DNA from: JAZDEY01 sp043808325 [NCBI: Candidatus Eiseniibacteriota bacterium]
GTDB taxonomy: Bacteria > Arandabacterota > Arandabacteria > Arandabacterales
NCBI GenBank assembly: GCA_043808325.1
Contig: JAZDEY010000058.1
Span: forward strand, 1 to 5,306
Length of the DNA stretch: 5,306 nt
Direction of reading: 5' to 3'
Shown: positions 226-5,306 of the stretch, in pieces
Layout: each line of letters opens with the position of its first letter
Numbering within the stretch: the stretch's first letter is position 1
Translations under genes and position numbers: made by a program
The notes under the pieces: generated by a model
Told to the model about the DNA's origin: nothing
Seen by the model: only the letters and a program-made list of their open reading frames with translations
Database searches by the model: none

Positions 226-289
226 ACCTAACAAACGACTCAAGGCGGACGCGGGCTAACGCCCGCGCCGCTTAGCCGCAACGTTAGGC
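226..289 (+). other. Integron attC recombination site (upstream cassette)
   Basis: The R'' box ACCTAAC (226-232, consensus RYYYAAC) and R' box GTTAGGC (283-289, consensus GTTRRRY) flank an imperfect palindrome. GCGGGC (251-256) pairs with GCCCGC (261-266) around loop TAAC. The stem continues with C250:G267, then the CGG (246-248) paired with CCG (268-270), then AAG/CTT. A249 is unpaired, and one G at 244/245 is probably a second extrahelical base. This matches the folded attC architecture recognised by IntI, including a bulged A in the central stem as in aadA-type attC sites. The crossover would lie between G283 and T284. About 64 bp is a usual attC length. Confidence 0.9.
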
Positions 290-405
290 ACCTGCAGATC
301 CTGGAATCCAAAGCCGAAGGATTGCAAAAAGTTGCGCAGCCAGCGGACAAAGGCGGGGATGCGCGGCAGTACTTGGCTGACAAAACTCCGAGGAGATGAA
401 CGCTT
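284..405 (+). other. Cassette leader with a possible gene remnant (in-frame to TGA 397-399)
   Basis: This stretch separates the crossover point from the OLD nuclease start. One frame is open through the whole leader and ends at TGA 397-399, six bases before the ATG at 406. It reads LQILESKAEGLQKVAQ, then PADKGGDARQYLADK, then TPRR, a helical, hydrophilic, protein-like tail. It has no ATG or GTG start inside the cassette, only CTG (292, 301) and TTG (322, 373). It may be the remaining C-terminus of a gene that preceded gajA in the source locus, cut when the cassette end was formed, or it may be chance. I see no convincing promoter here. Confidence 0.3.
391..395 (+). promoter_or_regulatory. Ribosome binding site of the OLD nuclease gene
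   Basis: AGGAG at 391-395 lies 10 bases before ATG 406. It also overlaps an ATG at 396 in another frame, which is too close to the Shine-Dalgarno sequence to be used. This fixes the start of the 680-residue protein at 406. Confidence 0.7.
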
Positions 406-2448
406 ATGCACCTCGCCGAGATACGAATCGAGAACTTCCGACTGTTCGGGGCGGGAGACTCCGCCCTCGTGCTCCCGTTTCAGCCCGGACTCAACGTCTT
501 GGTCGGTGAGAACGACTCAGGGAAGACTGCCATCGTAGATGCCATCCGCTATGCGCTGGGTACCACGAGCCAGGACTTCCAGCGCGTCACCGACGAGGAC
601 TTCCACGTCAAGAGCGGCCAGCGAGCGTCCGAGTTCAGCGTCCGCTGCCGGTTCACACACATCGACAAAGAAACAGGCGGTGCGCTGCTGGAACACTTAT
701 CCTACGAGGACGGGGCCCCCTGCCTGTACGTCACCTTCCACGCGATGCATAACGACGATGATAGCATCCGGCGCCGGATCACGGTGGAGGTCCGCTCGGG
801 CCGGGATGGCACGGGTCCAGTGCTGGACGGCAACGTACGGCTGTTGTTGCAGGCAACCTACCTTCGCCCACTGCGCGATGCCGAACGCGAACTCGATGCC
901 GGCCGGAACTCACGACTCTCGCAGATTCTTCAGCACACAAAGGAGATCGCCGCGCACAAGGATGAGGAGTTTGATCCGACCACCTTCGTCGCTGCGGTGG
1001 AATCCAAGGAGGGGGCTCAGTTCCCGAAGAGCATCGCCAACGTTTCCCGCCTCGCGGACCACCTCATCAGGGAGAACGAAGGCGTCAAGCAAGCCGGCGA
1101 TCGTCTGGACAAGAGCTACCTCGCCAACCTTAGTTTGGGCGATGAGCCCCTCGGAAGTAGAGTGTCCGTCGGCGAAGGCGCGACGATCGAGCAACGACTG
1201 CGAGCGCTCCTGGAGAAGCTCGAGCTACGCCTCTCGACGCCGGCCGATTCCGGCGGTCAGCTTCCGCATGGGCTTGGCTACAACAACCTGCTCTTCATGG
1301 CCTGTGAGCTCTTGCTGCTCGGTCAGGATCGCGACACCCTTCCTCTGCTGATGATCGAGGAGCCCGAGGCGCACCTGCACCCGCAGCTGCAGTTGCGGCT
1401 GGTGGAGTTTCTTCAGGAGCAAGCCGCCCAGGCCGTAGGGAGGCCGGTCCAGGTCATCGTCACCACGCACAGCCCGAACCTCGCGTCGAAGGTCAAGCTG
1501 GCCAGCATGATCCTCGTCTCCCAGGGCAGGGGGTTTCCGATGGGGCCTGAGCATACCTTGCTCTCCCCGACCGACTACGGTTTCCTCGAACGTTTCCTCG
1601 ACGTTACCAAGGCCAACCTCTTCTTCGCCCGAGGAGTTCTCATCGTCGAGGGGGATGCGGAGAACCTGCTCCTGCCTTCGCTGGCCCGGCTGCTCGGGAG
1701 GGATCTTACGCGCTACGGCGTGTCCATCGTCAACGTGGGCACTCGCGGACTGCGCCGCTATGCGCGCATTTTCCGCCGCAAGCCACTACCTGACAAGACG
1801 CTGGCACCCTCCATCCCGATACGGGTGGCTTGCATTGCGGACCGTGACATCCTGCCCGATTGCGCTCGCGAAGCCTTGGATCTCGAAGACGGAGCAGGCA
1901 AGGAAGAGAAGGCGAATCAACAGCCGAGGTTCGAAGCGGATCTGCCGGACGAAGACGCACGCGCGAAGTGGTTCGACGGGCAGTGTCGGGACGACGGCGA
2001 AAACGTGCGTACCTTCGTGTCGGATCATTGGACGCTGGAATACGACCTGGCGCATGCCGGGCTCGGCCCCAGTCTGCATACGGCAATCGCTTTGGCGAAG
2101 GGGGAGGCAAGTCGGGACAGAGAAGGGAGATCTCCCACAGACGAGGAGCGGGTGGCGATCAACAGAGCGGCGGAGAAGGTATGGAACGAGTTGAACCAAC
2201 AAGTCGGCAATCGCCCGGATGCCCGGGAGTACCTAGCTTGCATGGTCTACAAGCCTCTGCTGCGGAGCGTGTCAAAGCCGATGACCGCTCAGCATTTGGC
2301 TTCCATCTTGGAGTCGGGGGCCAGGGACAAGCTCTTGGTGTCGATCCCGGACTACATCCGGGGCGCGATCGAGTACGTAACCGGGTTTGGCCGTGCTGAA
2401 AGCACAGCCGGGGAAGAAATCAACAATGAGGGTAGCGTGACTCCGTGA
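406..2448 (+). CDS. gajA: Gabija anti-phage protein GajA, class 2 OLD family ATP-dependent endonuclease (ABC ATPase plus TOPRIM)
   Basis: This 680-residue protein has an intact two-domain OLD layout. The N-terminal ABC/AAA15 ATPase starts with the family-typical LAEIRIENFRLF. It has Walker A GENDSGKT (34-41), a signature-like region GLGYNNLLFMA (about 290-300), Walker B LLMIEEPEAHLHP (314-326) and the switch His in VTTHSPN (H355). The C-terminal TOPRIM nuclease has LIVEGDAE with E415 and E419, an IADRDI element with D479 and D481, and a later TLEYDL segment (E545). K624 is a candidate for the conserved C-terminal Lys. In characterised Gabija, GajA is a DNA-nicking endonuclease held inactive by nucleotide binding to its ATPase domain, and it assembles with GajB. 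The gene overlaps the helicase gene by 4 nt, and this OLD-UvrD pairing defines class 2 OLD/Gabija. It is longer than Bacillus cereus GajA (about 580 residues), so it is a divergent member. An RBS precedes ATG 406. Confidence 0.87.
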   Translation: MHLAEIRIENFRLFGAGDSALVLPFQPGLNVLVGENDSGKTAIVDAIRYALGTTSQDFQRVTDEDFHVKSGQRASEFSVRCRFTHIDKETGGALLEHLSYEDGAPCLYVTFHAMHNDDDSIRRRITVEVRSGRDGTGPVLDGNVRLLLQATYLRPLRDAERELDAGRNSRLSQILQHTKEIAAHKDEEFDPTTFVAAVESKEGAQFPKSIANVSRLADHLIRENEGVKQAGDRLDKSYLANLSLGDEPLGSRVSVGEGATIEQRLRALLEKLELRLSTPADSGGQLPHGLGYNNLLFMACELLLLGQDRDTLPLLMIEEPEAHLHPQLQLRLVEFLQEQAAQAVGRPVQVIVTTHSPNLASKVKLASMILVSQGRGFPMGPEHTLLSPTDYGFLERFLDVTKANLFFARGVLIVEGDAENLLLPSLARLLGRDLTRYGVSIVNVGTRGLRRYARIFRRKPLPDKTLAPSIPIRVACIADRDILPDCAREALDLEDGAGKEEKANQQPRFEADLPDEDARAKWFDGQCRDDGENVRTFVSDHWTLEYDLAHAGLGPSLHTAIALAKGEASRDREGRSPTDEERVAINRAAEKVWNELNQQVGNRPDAREYLACMVYKPLLRSVSKPMTAQHLASILESGARDKLLVSIPDYIRGAIEYVTGFGRAESTAGEEINNEGSVTP

Positions 2449-4499
2449 GTGCAGCCGCAGTCAATCCGCCGCTTCCCATTCCGGTGGTAGCTGACGCCGA
2501 CATCGAAGTCGCCGAACGGTACCTTGGCGTGTCCTTCGACGAACCACGCCGTCAGATCCTTCGCTCGAACGACAGCTTCGATGTCCAGGCTTGCCCCGGC
2601 AGCGGCAAGACGACGTTGCTGGTCGCCAAGCTGGCCATTCTCGGCGCCAAGTGGCCGCACGCCCGTCGGGGCATTTGCGTGCTCTCCCACACGAACGTGG
2701 CCCGGCAGGAGATCGAGAGCAAGCTCGCAGGAACCGCCGTTGGGCACCGACTGCTCGCCTATCCCCATTTCGTGGGCACGATCCACGGATTCGTGAACGA
2801 GTTCCTGGCTCTGCCCCTGCTGCGTTCGGAGGGGCATCACGTGCGTCTGATCGACGACGAGACCCACGGAGAGTTTTGCAAGGGACGGCTCTACTCGGTT
2901 GGTGCATACGCGAAAGCCGAGCTCTACCTGAAGAACAGGGAGCAGCACAGCCCGGACAGGACGATACGGGCGCTCAGGTACGAGGGTAGCGATCTCACGT
3001 TGGGCTCTGCCGCGGGGAGCCTGCCATGTGGCGCTAAATCGGACAGCTGGAAGATCCTCGACAGGATTAAGAGAGAAGCAGTGAGCAAGGGCTTTTGGCG
3101 CTTCGACGACATGTTCGCTTGGGCCGAGAGGCTACTGGCGATGCACCCGAAGGTCGCAGAGTTCGCGCGCTGGCGCTTCCCTGCGGTCTTCCTGGACGAG
3201 ACGCAGGACACGTCGGAGCTTCAAGGAAGCCTGCTGAACAAAATCTTCCCGGTCTCCGCCTGCGACCTCCGCCAGCGGTTCGGGGACTCGAACCAGGCCA
3301 TTTACGACTTTGGCCAGCGGGCGGCAACTACCGACCGATTTCCTTCCGCCGGTTACCGGTCACTACCGAACAGCCAGCGCTTCGGGCCGAGTATTGCGGC
3401 CAAGGCATATTCGCTGGCAGTCGTCCCGACGAGCCCATCTCTGACGGGAAAAGGTCCGCGGAAGAACGTGTTACCGCGCGCCCTCGACTCAGCCGCCATG
3501 CCGCACACGATCTTCCTGTTCGCTCCGAACTCCGCGCAACAGGTCCTTCCGGCGTTCGGCAGCCTCCTGCTTCAGACCTTCCCGGACGAGGTGCTCCGCT
3601 GCGACGCATTCCTCGCACGGGCCATCGCGCGGGTGGGGAGGTCTGAAGCATCTGACGAGAAGGTTCCAAGACATCTCGGCGACTACTGGACAGCCTATGA
3701 ACCACGCGTGGCGAAACTGGAGCCCAGGCCAGAGCACCTGGTCGACTACGTTCATCTCGCTCAGCGCAGAAGAGTCGCCACAGTCGATTGCGCCGAATCA
3801 ATTAGGATGGTGGTCAAGGGTATCTGCGAACTTATCGAGATCGTCCAGCCGGCCGCGATCCCGCGCGGCGGGCACGCGGCTCGATGGCTATGGGAAGCGC
3901 ACCAGAAGGATGAGTCGTCCGTCGTCTCGCTTCGTCGCCTTCTCTGGGAATGGTGCATCGAGACGACGCCCATTGTCGAGGAGCGTTGGACCGACAAGGT
4001 TACGGAGCTGCGTTGCGCTCTGAGTCAGATGATCGGGAGGGACTGTAACTCGGGCGCGGACGCATTCTGCGAGTGGTCGATGGATTATGCCGAGCAGACG
4101 TCGAGCCCCAAGCCCGAAGGCCCCGCAGCGCCGAACCGCTACCGATTGCATCAAAACGGGCGCTATGTAGACATAGACGTGGGCACCATCCATAGCGCCA
4201 AAGGCCAGACGCATACAGCAACCTTGGTCCTGGAGTCTCTCTTCAAGAAGCATGATATGCAGGACCTCCTGCGGTGGATCTGCGGTAAGAATTGCAACGC
4301 GGGTTCCAGGCCAGGCACGGAACTAACGGAGCGCATGCGCCTCGTCTACACAGCCATGACCCGCCCGAGTCATCTCCTCTGCCTGGCCATGCGAAGGGAT
4401 GCGGTCACACAAGACGGCGCGGAAGCCGAGACGCGACAGCAGCTTGAGCAACTCGGTTGGACCGTAAAGGATCTCGGTACCTGCGAAGGAGCTTCCTGA
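2445..4499 (+). CDS. gajB: Gabija protein GajB, UvrD/PcrA-like SF1 DNA helicase
   Basis: This 684-residue protein has a complete SF1A helicase motif set. There is a Q-motif-like FDEPRRQI (31-38), motif I ACPGSGKTT with K55 and T56, and motif Ia LSHTN (80-84). A GTIHGF segment (111-116) and motif II LDETQD (D251, E252, Q254, D255) follow. Then come motif III GDSNQAIY (280-287), motif IV-like LPNSQRF with R312, motif V TIHSAKGQTH (581-590), and motif VI RLVYTAMTR with R632 and R640. It lacks a visible PD-(D/E)XK nuclease domain. In known Gabija, GajB is an ATPase/helicase that binds the GajA assembly and is activated by DNA ends. The start is GTG 2445, overlapping the gajA stop TGA (2446-2448), with GAGGGT at 2428-2433 as a loose Shine-Dalgarno. 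Translation is therefore likely coupled. It is much longer than B. cereus GajB (about 494 residues). The extra length lies mainly between motifs IV and V, in the 1B/2B-type accessory region. Confidence 0.87.
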   Translation: MSAAAVNPPLPIPVVADADIEVAERYLGVSFDEPRRQILRSNDSFDVQACPGSGKTTLLVAKLAILGAKWPHARRGICVLSHTNVARQEIESKLAGTAVGHRLLAYPHFVGTIHGFVNEFLALPLLRSEGHHVRLIDDETHGEFCKGRLYSVGAYAKAELYLKNREQHSPDRTIRALRYEGSDLTLGSAAGSLPCGAKSDSWKILDRIKREAVSKGFWRFDDMFAWAERLLAMHPKVAEFARWRFPAVFLDETQDTSELQGSLLNKIFPVSACDLRQRFGDSNQAIYDFGQRAATTDRFPSAGYRSLPNSQRFGPSIAAKAYSLAVVPTSPSLTGKGPRKNVLPRALDSAAMPHTIFLFAPNSAQQVLPAFGSLLLQTFPDEVLRCDAFLARAIARVGRSEASDEKVPRHLGDYWTAYEPRVAKLEPRPEHLVDYVHLAQRRRVATVDCAESIRMVVKGICELIEIVQPAAIPRGGHAARWLWEAHQKDESSVVSLRRLLWEWCIETTPIVEERWTDKVTELRCALSQMIGRDCNSGADAFCEWSMDYAEQTSSPKPEGPAAPNRYRLHQNGRYVDIDVGTIHSAKGQTHTATLVLESLFKKHDMQDLLRWICGKNCNAGSRPGTELTERMRLVYTAMTRPSHLLCLAMRRDAVTQDGAEAETRQQLEQLGWTVKDLGTCEGAS

Positions 4500-4501
4500 T
4501 G
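4485..4501 (+). promoter_or_regulatory. RBS and overlapping start of the DUF262 remnant
   Basis: GAAGGA (4485-4490) lies 8 bases before ATG 4499. That ATG shares one base with the gajB stop in TGATG (4497-4501). This arrangement decides the start at 4499 over an upstream in-frame ATG at 4457 that has no RBS and lies deep inside gajB. It shows the third gene was once a translationally coupled member of the operon. Confidence 0.6.
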
Positions 4502-4783
4502 GCGAAAGCTGAAGCCACCGTCGAAGAATTGGTCGGTATGATCGAGTGCGGCGAACTGCGTCTACCAGAGATGCAGCGCTGCTACGTCTGGTGTTCGACC
4601 CACGTCCGCGACCTGCTCGACTCGCTCTACCGCGGCTGCCCCTCGTGGCCGATCCTGCTGTGGGAGACCGATGAATCAGTCCCTCTGCAGGAGTTTGCTG
4701 TCCCGCACAAGAGTTTCCTTGCGGAGCGGCGGAAGGCCTTGAGCCGGCGACTGAATGAATTCCTCGGAGTGGCACAGCCATGA
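4499..4783 (+). pseudogene. DUF262 (GmrSD/ParB-like) protein, internally deleted remnant of 94 codons
   Basis: Residues 7-68 match the start of DUF262 proteins: TVEELVGMIECGELRLP, then EMQR-x-YVW, VRDLLDSLYRG, ILLWETDE and VPLQEFAV. DUF262 is a ParB/Srx-like nucleotide-binding domain found in GmrSD restriction enzymes and other phage-defence proteins, normally hundreds of residues long with a downstream DGQQR motif. That motif is absent. From about residue 69 the chain jumps to SFLAERRKALSRRLNEFLG and ends. This resembles the last helix typical of long DUF262 proteins, so an in-frame internal deletion near 4700-4712 is likely. C28, C32, C47 and W50 sit where I would expect Arg, Arg, Tyr and Gly, also suggesting decay. 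It overlaps gajB by one base. It might still make a short peptide, but catalytic function is unlikely. The DUF262 call is firm; the deletion reading is inferred. Confidence 0.65.
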
Positions 4784-4889
4784 TGTGCATGCTGCTTGAA
4801 GAAGCGCCGGCGCAGAGCGGGCTGCGGACGCGACGATGCTTGGGGATACACGAATGCGGGGCGCCGAGTGTGGGACAGCGTACCCAGGT
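4784..4889 (+). other. Cassette 3' tail between the DUF262 remnant and attC, no supported gene
   Basis: About 105 bases, GC-rich, separate the third gene's stop from the attC R'' box. An ATGATG at 4780 overlaps that stop and opens a frame of 63 codons. The frame runs straight through attC and into the flanking DNA, so I do not accept it as a gene. No terminator or promoter stands out. Confidence 0.4.
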
Positions 4890-4949
4890 GCCTAACAACA
4901 GTATGCAGCGGACGGCGATCCGCGCCGCCGCTGATGCCGAGCGTTACTC
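4890..4949 (+). other. Integron attC recombination site of the Gabija-type cassette (R' half degenerate)
   Basis: R'' GCCTAAC (4890-4896) fits RYYYAAC perfectly. The hairpin pairs CAGCGG (4906-4911) with CCGCTG (4928-4933) and CGGCG (4913-4917) with CGCCG (4923-4927), loop ATCCG. A4912 is bulged between the two stems, as A249 is in the left attC. The crossover would be G4943/T4944. The right half reads GTTACTC instead of GTTRRRY. Bases after the crossover come from whatever lies downstream, so this suggests the array ends here. Read in one frame, the site encodes NNSMQRTAIRAAADAER, a string I recognise as a frequent spurious tail in annotated beta/gammaproteobacterial hypothetical proteins. 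Confidence 0.8.
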
Positions 4950-5079: not shown

Positions 5080-5306
5080 TCACCGAATCGTTTCATAGCC
5101 TCCGGGGACGCCATGCTTCGAGAAGACGATTTGCCACAGTTGAACATGCCGGGCGCGAAAGGACCCGGCGCAGTAAAGCAGGTAGTATTCCCACAGGCGG
5201 TAGAACCGCTCGCCGTATTTCGCCTTCAATTGATCCCAGCCCGTGTCGAAGTTTTCAAACCATGCCATCAGCGTCCTGTCGTAATCGGGGCCGATCATGT
5301 GCCAGT
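5080..5306 (-). CDS. cfa: Cyclopropane-fatty-acyl-phospholipid synthase, C-terminal end (5' end outside window)
   Basis: The minus-strand frame is open from the window edge to TGA at 5082-5080. It encodes 74 complete C-terminal codons starting WHMIGPDYDRTLMAWF. Characteristic blocks are GPDYDRTLMAWFENF, YGERFYRLWEYYLLYCAGSF and FRARHVQLWQIVFSKHG, ending GGYETIR. These align in order with the E. coli Cfa tail, recalled as WHNFGADYDTTLMAW, then ERFKRMFTYYLNACAGAFRA, then LWQVVFSRG. The enzyme uses S-adenosylmethionine to add a methylene group across cis double bonds of membrane phospholipid acyl chains; it is soluble and membrane-associated. The SAM-binding core lies outside the window. It is convergent with the cassette operon and functionally unrelated. 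It probably marks the fixed chromosomal border of the array. A polyunsaturated-fatty-acid or other CFA-family methyltransferase is possible but less likely. Confidence 0.88.
   Translation of the reverse strand, partial: WHMIGPDYDRTLMAWFENFDTGWDQLKAKYGERFYRLWEYYLLYCAGSFRARHVQLWQIVFSKHGVPGGYETIR

Follow-up and report, generated by a model that had tools for sequence, protein, structure and literature searches.

Integron gene cassettes are typically, if not by strict definition, short elements with a single gene, the median coding length being given as 362 bp in sedentary and 575 bp in mobile integrons in the text of Loot et al., 2017 (PMC5371416). The same text reports inserts tested up to 3,060 bp, with excision lowered for cassettes of at least 1,500 bp if one of the attC recombination sites folds poorly, and not if both fold well, and concludes that short coding sequences are not imposed by recombination itself. 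Defence genes in such cassettes were published in 2025, both from chromosomal integrons, those of Vibrio cholerae and V. parahaemolyticus, and from mobile ones (the anti-phage cassette studies of Darracq, Kieffer and Getz, as cited in PMC12409362 and PMC12444791). The pertinent passages of the review PMC12409362 present cassette-borne defence as streamlined and systems of more than two genes as absent, and those of PMC12444791 give twelve systems, including Kiwa and Shedu, recognized by DefenseFinder among Xanthomonas cassette genes. Gabija combines GajA, an ATPase with a TOPRIM site of the residue types E, G and DxD (as set out in PMC10781630), with the UvrD-like helicase GajB; attC and Gabija both appear in PMC12342005, which in its relevant parts treats them separately. 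We found no report of a Gabija cassette among the titles and abstracts listed in the literature searches, though the 2025 primary papers may contain one.

Here we describe a stretch of 5,306 nucleotides, henceforth the window, from contig JAZDEY010000058.1 of a Candidatus Eiseniibacteriota bacterium (assembly GCA_043808325.1). We hold with good confidence that its positions 284-4943 constitute a single integron gene cassette, which probably closes its array beside the gene cfa and which carries an intact Gabija operon together with the relic of a DUF262 gene. Like the 2025 anti-phage cassettes, it has a defence function, here a predicted one, between attC sites in an array, and like the Kiwa and Shedu cassettes of Xanthomonas (PMC12444791) it features a known defence system among cassette genes, if a different one. 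In contrast to the former, which are described as streamlined and never of more than two genes (PMC12409362), it has two full-size genes and a third, relic gene in 4.66 kb. Its parts, all on the forward strand, are as follows:

226-289, + strand: attC1, the site of the preceding cassette, with the crossover at G283/T284
284-4943, + strand: the probable cassette, 4660 bp, including most of attC2 at its 3' end
284-405, + strand: 5' leader, in which a purine-rich stretch resembling a ribosome-binding site precedes gajA
406-2448, + strand: gajA, ATPase and TOPRIM (OLD-like) nuclease, 680 residues
2445-4499, + strand: gajB, UvrD-like helicase, 684 residues, with a GTG start overlapping the gajA stop
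4499-4783, + strand: DUF262 (GmrSD_N/HEC-05-like) gene relic, 94 residues, its start overlapping the gajB stop (TGATG)
4885-4896, + strand: CAGGTGCCTAAC, complementary to 283-294 and containing the R'' box of attC2
4890-4949, + strand: attC2, the cassette's own site, with a degenerate R' and the crossover at G4943/T4944

The two attC sites share their orientation, with the boxes R'' ACCTAAC (226-232) and R' GTTAGGC (283-289) in attC1, and R'' GCCTAAC (4890-4896) and GTTACTC in the R' position (4943-4949) in attC2. We scored them with R1, an attC covariance model made from 18 sites of other genomes and containing neither site of the window; its E-values are to be taken as rough. With all filters off, R1 matches 227-289 at 49.1 bits (E = 5.8e-16) and 4893-4949 at 35.8 bits (E = 3e-11), while its third match in the window (12.0 bits) is attC1 on the reverse strand. 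The best match within 290-4880 scores 5.8 bits (E = 1.1), and hence a covariance-model scan of the kind that an earlier note on this DNA had proposed yields two strong sites and no credible third between them. For comparison, the best R1 match across 963,861 bases from loci retrieved for their GajA or DUF262 relatives stands at 16.2 bits (E = 0.045), and a further 527,511 bases gave no match up to an E-value of 1. On the bottom strand attC1 folds at -22.0 kcal/mol, and none of 200 shuffles folds as well (z-score -5.2).

The ends of the element match each other. The 12 bp at 283-294, GTTAGGCACCTG, are the exact reverse complement of 4885-4896, whereas attC1's own R'' pairs with the R' half-site over 6 bp only; here the earlier note, which had given these coordinates and both crossovers and had called the left R'' the poorer partner, was right throughout. 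A 12-bp inverted pair somewhere in the 5.3-kb window is not rare (0.84 expected), and the pair draws its weight from its position at both crossover points rather than from its mere occurrence. As a control we used 70 intervals between neighbouring attC matches from 15 of 20 fetched regions, in which the own ends match over 0-12 bp: at least 7 bp in 44 intervals and the full 12 bp in one. Of the 4830 pairs made by exchanging ends between intervals, about 0.06% match over at least 12 bp; the window's 5' end shares no more than 8 bp with the 3' ends of other cassettes, and its 3' end no more than 9 bp with their 5' ends. Since a 12-bp match is found between the window's own ends and so rarely between swapped ones, the two ends belong together, as had been claimed. 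The earlier note had further pointed to the complementarity beyond the 7-base boxes, but a match extending past the box is common in true cassettes and no peculiarity of this one.

Certain features of this control bear on how its counts are read. It used 90 of 95 attC matches, after two reverse-strand duplicates and three weak matches were dropped, the latter being L158 17133 and L167 8646, each of which would split an interval, and L156 7081, which would add one. The regions L152 and L168 come from one genome and share at least one cassette start, so that the 70 intervals are not all independent. In the 26 intervals with a match below 7 bp the attC match apparently often ends out of register, and the four longest (3.7-7.9 kb), with matches of 0, 0, 2 and 4 bp, may hold missed attC sites.

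Turning to the cargo, the Gabija operon is complete as judged from its reading frames, with both genes full length and their motifs kept. GajA matches the PADLOC GajA model at 663.5 bits over residues 1-661, as well as Pfam AAA_15 and OLD-like_TOPRIM, and retains the Walker A GENDSGKT, the Walker B stretch IEEPEAH, and VEGDAE, VNVG and the DxD in ADRD, from which the E, G and DxD of the TOPRIM site were placed by motif, without structural alignment. The adjacent GajB matches PADLOC GajB at 583.4 bits (residues 12-677) and retains the helicase motifs GSGKT, DETQD, GDSNQAIY, IHSAKG and AMTR. Against six plasmid relatives, identity is 46.8-48.8% for GajA and 35.9-38.9% for GajB, and the lengths are unreduced (680 residues vs 653-690 for GajA, 684 vs 661-671 for GajB). 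In both genes and in every one of the six comparisons, third codon positions differ most often, an excess that long-standing constraint would lead one to expect and that gives no date for events after capture. The locus shares with Gabija both genes in the same order, overlapping, with the ATPase-TOPRIM and UvrD-like helicase and their active-site motifs; it differs in sitting between attC sites and in the DUF262 relic that overlaps the end of gajB. Its two proteins bear only a distant resemblance to the Gabija proteins of solved structure, the best stretches being 303-427 of GajA and 34-127 of GajB.

The earlier note had taken the element for a Gabija operon; the whole operon within 4660 bp is borne out, but the note had missed the third open reading frame (ORF), which begins in the gajB stop. 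Over its N-terminal 68 residues this ORF shares 78% identity with the N-terminal end of a 566-residue DUF262 protein from a Rhizobium rhizogenes plasmid, and over its C-terminal 24 it shares 54% with about the last 24 of the same protein. The alignment of this tail to the C-terminal end scores 68, reached by none of 2000 shuffles (best 42); with a second relative (Planctomycetes K2D) it is weaker, at 41, reached by 4 of 2000. In local scoring the tail reaches 68 and 41 against the last 40 residues of the two relatives and 14 and 14 against residues 69-130, while a global alignment placed it just after the N-terminal part instead of at the C-terminus. That the N-terminal part is joined in frame to the apparent C-terminal end, with loss of the gene's middle, is accordingly well supported if not certain, and the ORF has plainly been cut from about 566 to 94 residues; to fix the ends of the deletion exactly would take a close relative. 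The full-length 566-residue relative is HEC-05-like (155.7 bits, residues 3-562). With HEC-05-like and GmrSD_N (DUF262) proteins the relic has in common its first 60-70 residues and also, when aligned locally, its C-terminal end; at 94 vs 566 residues it is not a full-length endonuclease with the conserved core, about 470 residues being gone, including the DGQQR stretch common to two full-length DUF262 relatives. The relic is presumably inactive.

A tblastn search (E = 1e-3) of 12 loci that bear related Gabija operons found no DUF262 gene. Two such loci from two genomes show another third ORF overlapping gajB by 10 bp (L201, 3970-5013, - strand; L202, 5387-6943, - strand), that of L202 with a DUF6883 domain and that of L201 without a Pfam match. 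Both operons lie near what we take, from the starts of the ORFs, to be guaA/guaB genes, perhaps a shared insertion place. On a Cupriavidus plasmid (L181, 1760-9060), genes for a Shedu nuclease and a phage-type integrase immediately precede the related Gabija operon.

The flanks of the probable cassette hold the remaining features:

2-196, + strand: 3' part of an HNH-type ORF that runs off the window, probably the gene of the preceding cassette
187-215, + strand: sigma-70-like promoter match upstream of the cassette (TTGTCA-17-AATAAT, with TG before the -10), weak evidence
5080-5304, - strand: C-terminal end of cfa (cyclopropane-fatty-acyl-phospholipid synthase), probably host DNA past the end of the array

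The HNH-type ORF matches Pfam HNH at E = 9e-4 and 19.8 bits, below the curated cut-off of 21.4. The cfa fragment matches NCBIfam PRK11705 at 112.6 bits (the cut-off for the full length is 400) and Pfam CMAS at 51.6 bits, and finds matches in 214 of 369 sampled genomes, the best at 68% identity. It lies on the opposite strand, 130 bp beyond attC2, and this succession of attC2 and cfa makes the Gabija cassette probably the last of its array. The GC content, about 61-62% in the cassette genes, 50% in the right flank and 45% in the left, we count as support for the cassette. An Rfam search of the window gave nothing that reaches gathering scores. As for cfa neighbourhoods as a shared integron site, an attC-like site lies near one of 30 cfa loci, with other DNA between, and we do not use it as evidence. 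That site (L090, 319-373, genome G276; 23 bits) is about 350 bp from cfa (723-944, - strand), and the two have the relative orientation seen in the window; the genome has seven attC matches over six contigs and an integron-type integrase.

In the plasmid collection, GajA relatives occur in 361 records, all below 60% identity, and DNA similarity in 38 records, inside genes only; among viral_contigs there are three distant GajA relatives, and a 20-base piece of attC2 has one match there, which is not an attC. At six Gabija loci the DNA similarity stops within the genes, these loci being too distant for a good test of the cassette ends. No attC at E of 0.01 or less was found around 78 genome and 3 viral loci, mostly of distant OLD-type relatives, nor at 6 plasmid GajA loci from the 361 records, the best overall being the 16.2-bit background match (at L018); the same holds for the 3 best of 369 genomes searched with GajA, 7 of which passed E = 1e-20. 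A converse search with GajA in 30 of the 35 genomes that matched the attC collecting pattern (5 were left out, their matches not being attC-like) gave at best 53 bits; ten genomes from which other loci had been fetched, overlapping with these 30 in one genome, reached 70.7 bits at most.

Several points weigh against reading 284-4943 as a cassette with a Gabija operon. It is known from a single copy, and no integrase has been seen with it: neither intI nor attI lies within the window, which ends in the preceding cassette. The searches above revealed no second copy, the closest GajA matches being about 46-50% identical, and no empty site joining 283 to 4944. No NCBIfam model above its cut-off names gajA or gajB as Gabija. 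The 18 sites of R1 were picked by hand from 45 listed pattern matches for short length and the look of a hairpin, and since they were chosen by eye, the R-box pairing and covariation in R1 are no independent evidence; the collecting pattern itself is unspecific (35 of 369 genomes matched vs 48 of 369 for the pattern read backwards). What supports R1 is that its matches, some of them training sites, lie in head-to-tail rows, with at least two kept same-strand matches in 15 of 20 fetched regions. Further, attC2 as integrated is degenerate in its R' and folds only modestly better than shuffles (-15.7 kcal/mol, z-score -1.9, 9 of 200 as good). Its hairpin has lost the outer arm because the R' reads GTTACTC, although it retains R'' and R' positions oriented as in attC1. 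Lastly, 4660 bp exceeds the inserts of up to 3,060 bp in the text of PMC5371416, with an attC2 that seems to belong to the poorly folding kind.

Size also speaks for a different origin, in which the Gabija-DUF262 block entered an older short cassette, ending at 284 and 4943, by another route such as transposition or illegitimate recombination. At 4660 bp the element lies far outside the range of the sampled intervals, whose median is 557 bp and of which the longest with at least 7 bp matching between its own ends measures 1604 bp; moreover, the DUF262 relic shows that rearrangement has occurred here, and the leader and tail differ in GC (55% vs 66%). Yet among the five ORFs scanned, the scan leaving aside other, overlapping frames, none is a transposase or phage integrase, and leader and tail share no target duplication, their longest common direct word of 6 bp being reached by 291 of 300 shuffles; we regard such an insertion as unlikely. 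Fused cassettes do exist, as noted in PMC4670013, and the degenerate R' side of attC2 would suit two sites left over from different decayed cassettes once separated by a lost attC, be it through fusion or in a degraded cluster of attC sites lacking integron-integrases (CALIN). The 12-bp match of the ends speaks for true own ends instead, no credible internal attC match survives, and the overlaps of gajA with gajB and of gajB with the DUF262 ORF leave room for a lost attC only in the leader (about 117 bp) or the tail (about 106 bp), which makes this origin quite improbable. As for a chromosomal defence island flanked by chance attC-like hairpins and no cassette at all, the relatives of this Gabija type that were examined indeed lack a nearby attC; however, scores of 49.1 and 35.8 bits, where 963,861 background bases yield no more than 16.2, together with the common orientation and the matching ends, render it barely credible.

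We therefore return to the single cassette and to how it might have come to its place. The substrate of the integron integrase is the bottom strand of attC in its folded form. The integrase would once have inserted the block as a circle through such a folded site, and the circle, rejoining G4943 to T284, would possess an attC with a perfect 12-bp R'/R'' arm. The perfect pair that the earlier note had foreseen in the circular form is upheld by the predicted fold of this junction, -26.9 kcal/mol on the bottom strand with the whole arm (70 nucleotides) and -20.9 kcal/mol when trimmed to 62 nucleotides, about equal to that of attC1. The block would accordingly have arrived with a good attC and now have a poor one beside host DNA; with the R' partner of the right attC lost, the block is probably excised with low efficiency, and the integrated cassette may be hard to remove, or 'parked'. 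The DUF262 gene was probably carried along from a defence island and lost its middle. The predicted nuclease GajA and helicase GajB probably work together in the usual Gabija manner, as a complex cutting phage DNA. Concerning their expression, the window has 3 promoter-like matches vs 1.3 (standard deviation 1.2) expected by shuffling; the one at 187-215 lies where the preceding cassette ends and points into the Gabija cassette, while the scan found none in the cassette's own leader. Expression would depend on a local promoter and not on the distant integron promoter Pc.

With its DUF262 relic the cassette follows the trend towards streamlining, but its two full-size genes run counter to it, and the 4.66-kb operon is an outlier among defence cassettes. 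The earlier note had seen in it a widening of what integrons carry as defence; this holds for the size and the full-length genes, which are the new part, and not for defence cassettes as such, which PMC12409362 and PMC12444791 show to be already published. A full-size Gabija operon between two attC sites offers a concrete case against the size rule stated in the review PMC12409362. We tentatively suggest, as a possibility rather than an expectation, that integrons can capture and move whole multi-gene blocks of full-size genes from defence islands, and that small, streamlined size is no limit set by recombination. If so, the block moved was 4.66 kb here, or about 6 kb if it once held the DUF262 gene in full, and surveys that cluster attC sites by short spacing may have missed such cassettes. 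IntegronFinder uses a default distance of 4 kb, and an adjustable distance threshold finds mention in the literature. The relic also suggests that cassettes can shorten by internal deletion, and with one construct from this cassette it becomes directly testable how large a cassette can be and still recombine, and how long defence cassettes arise.

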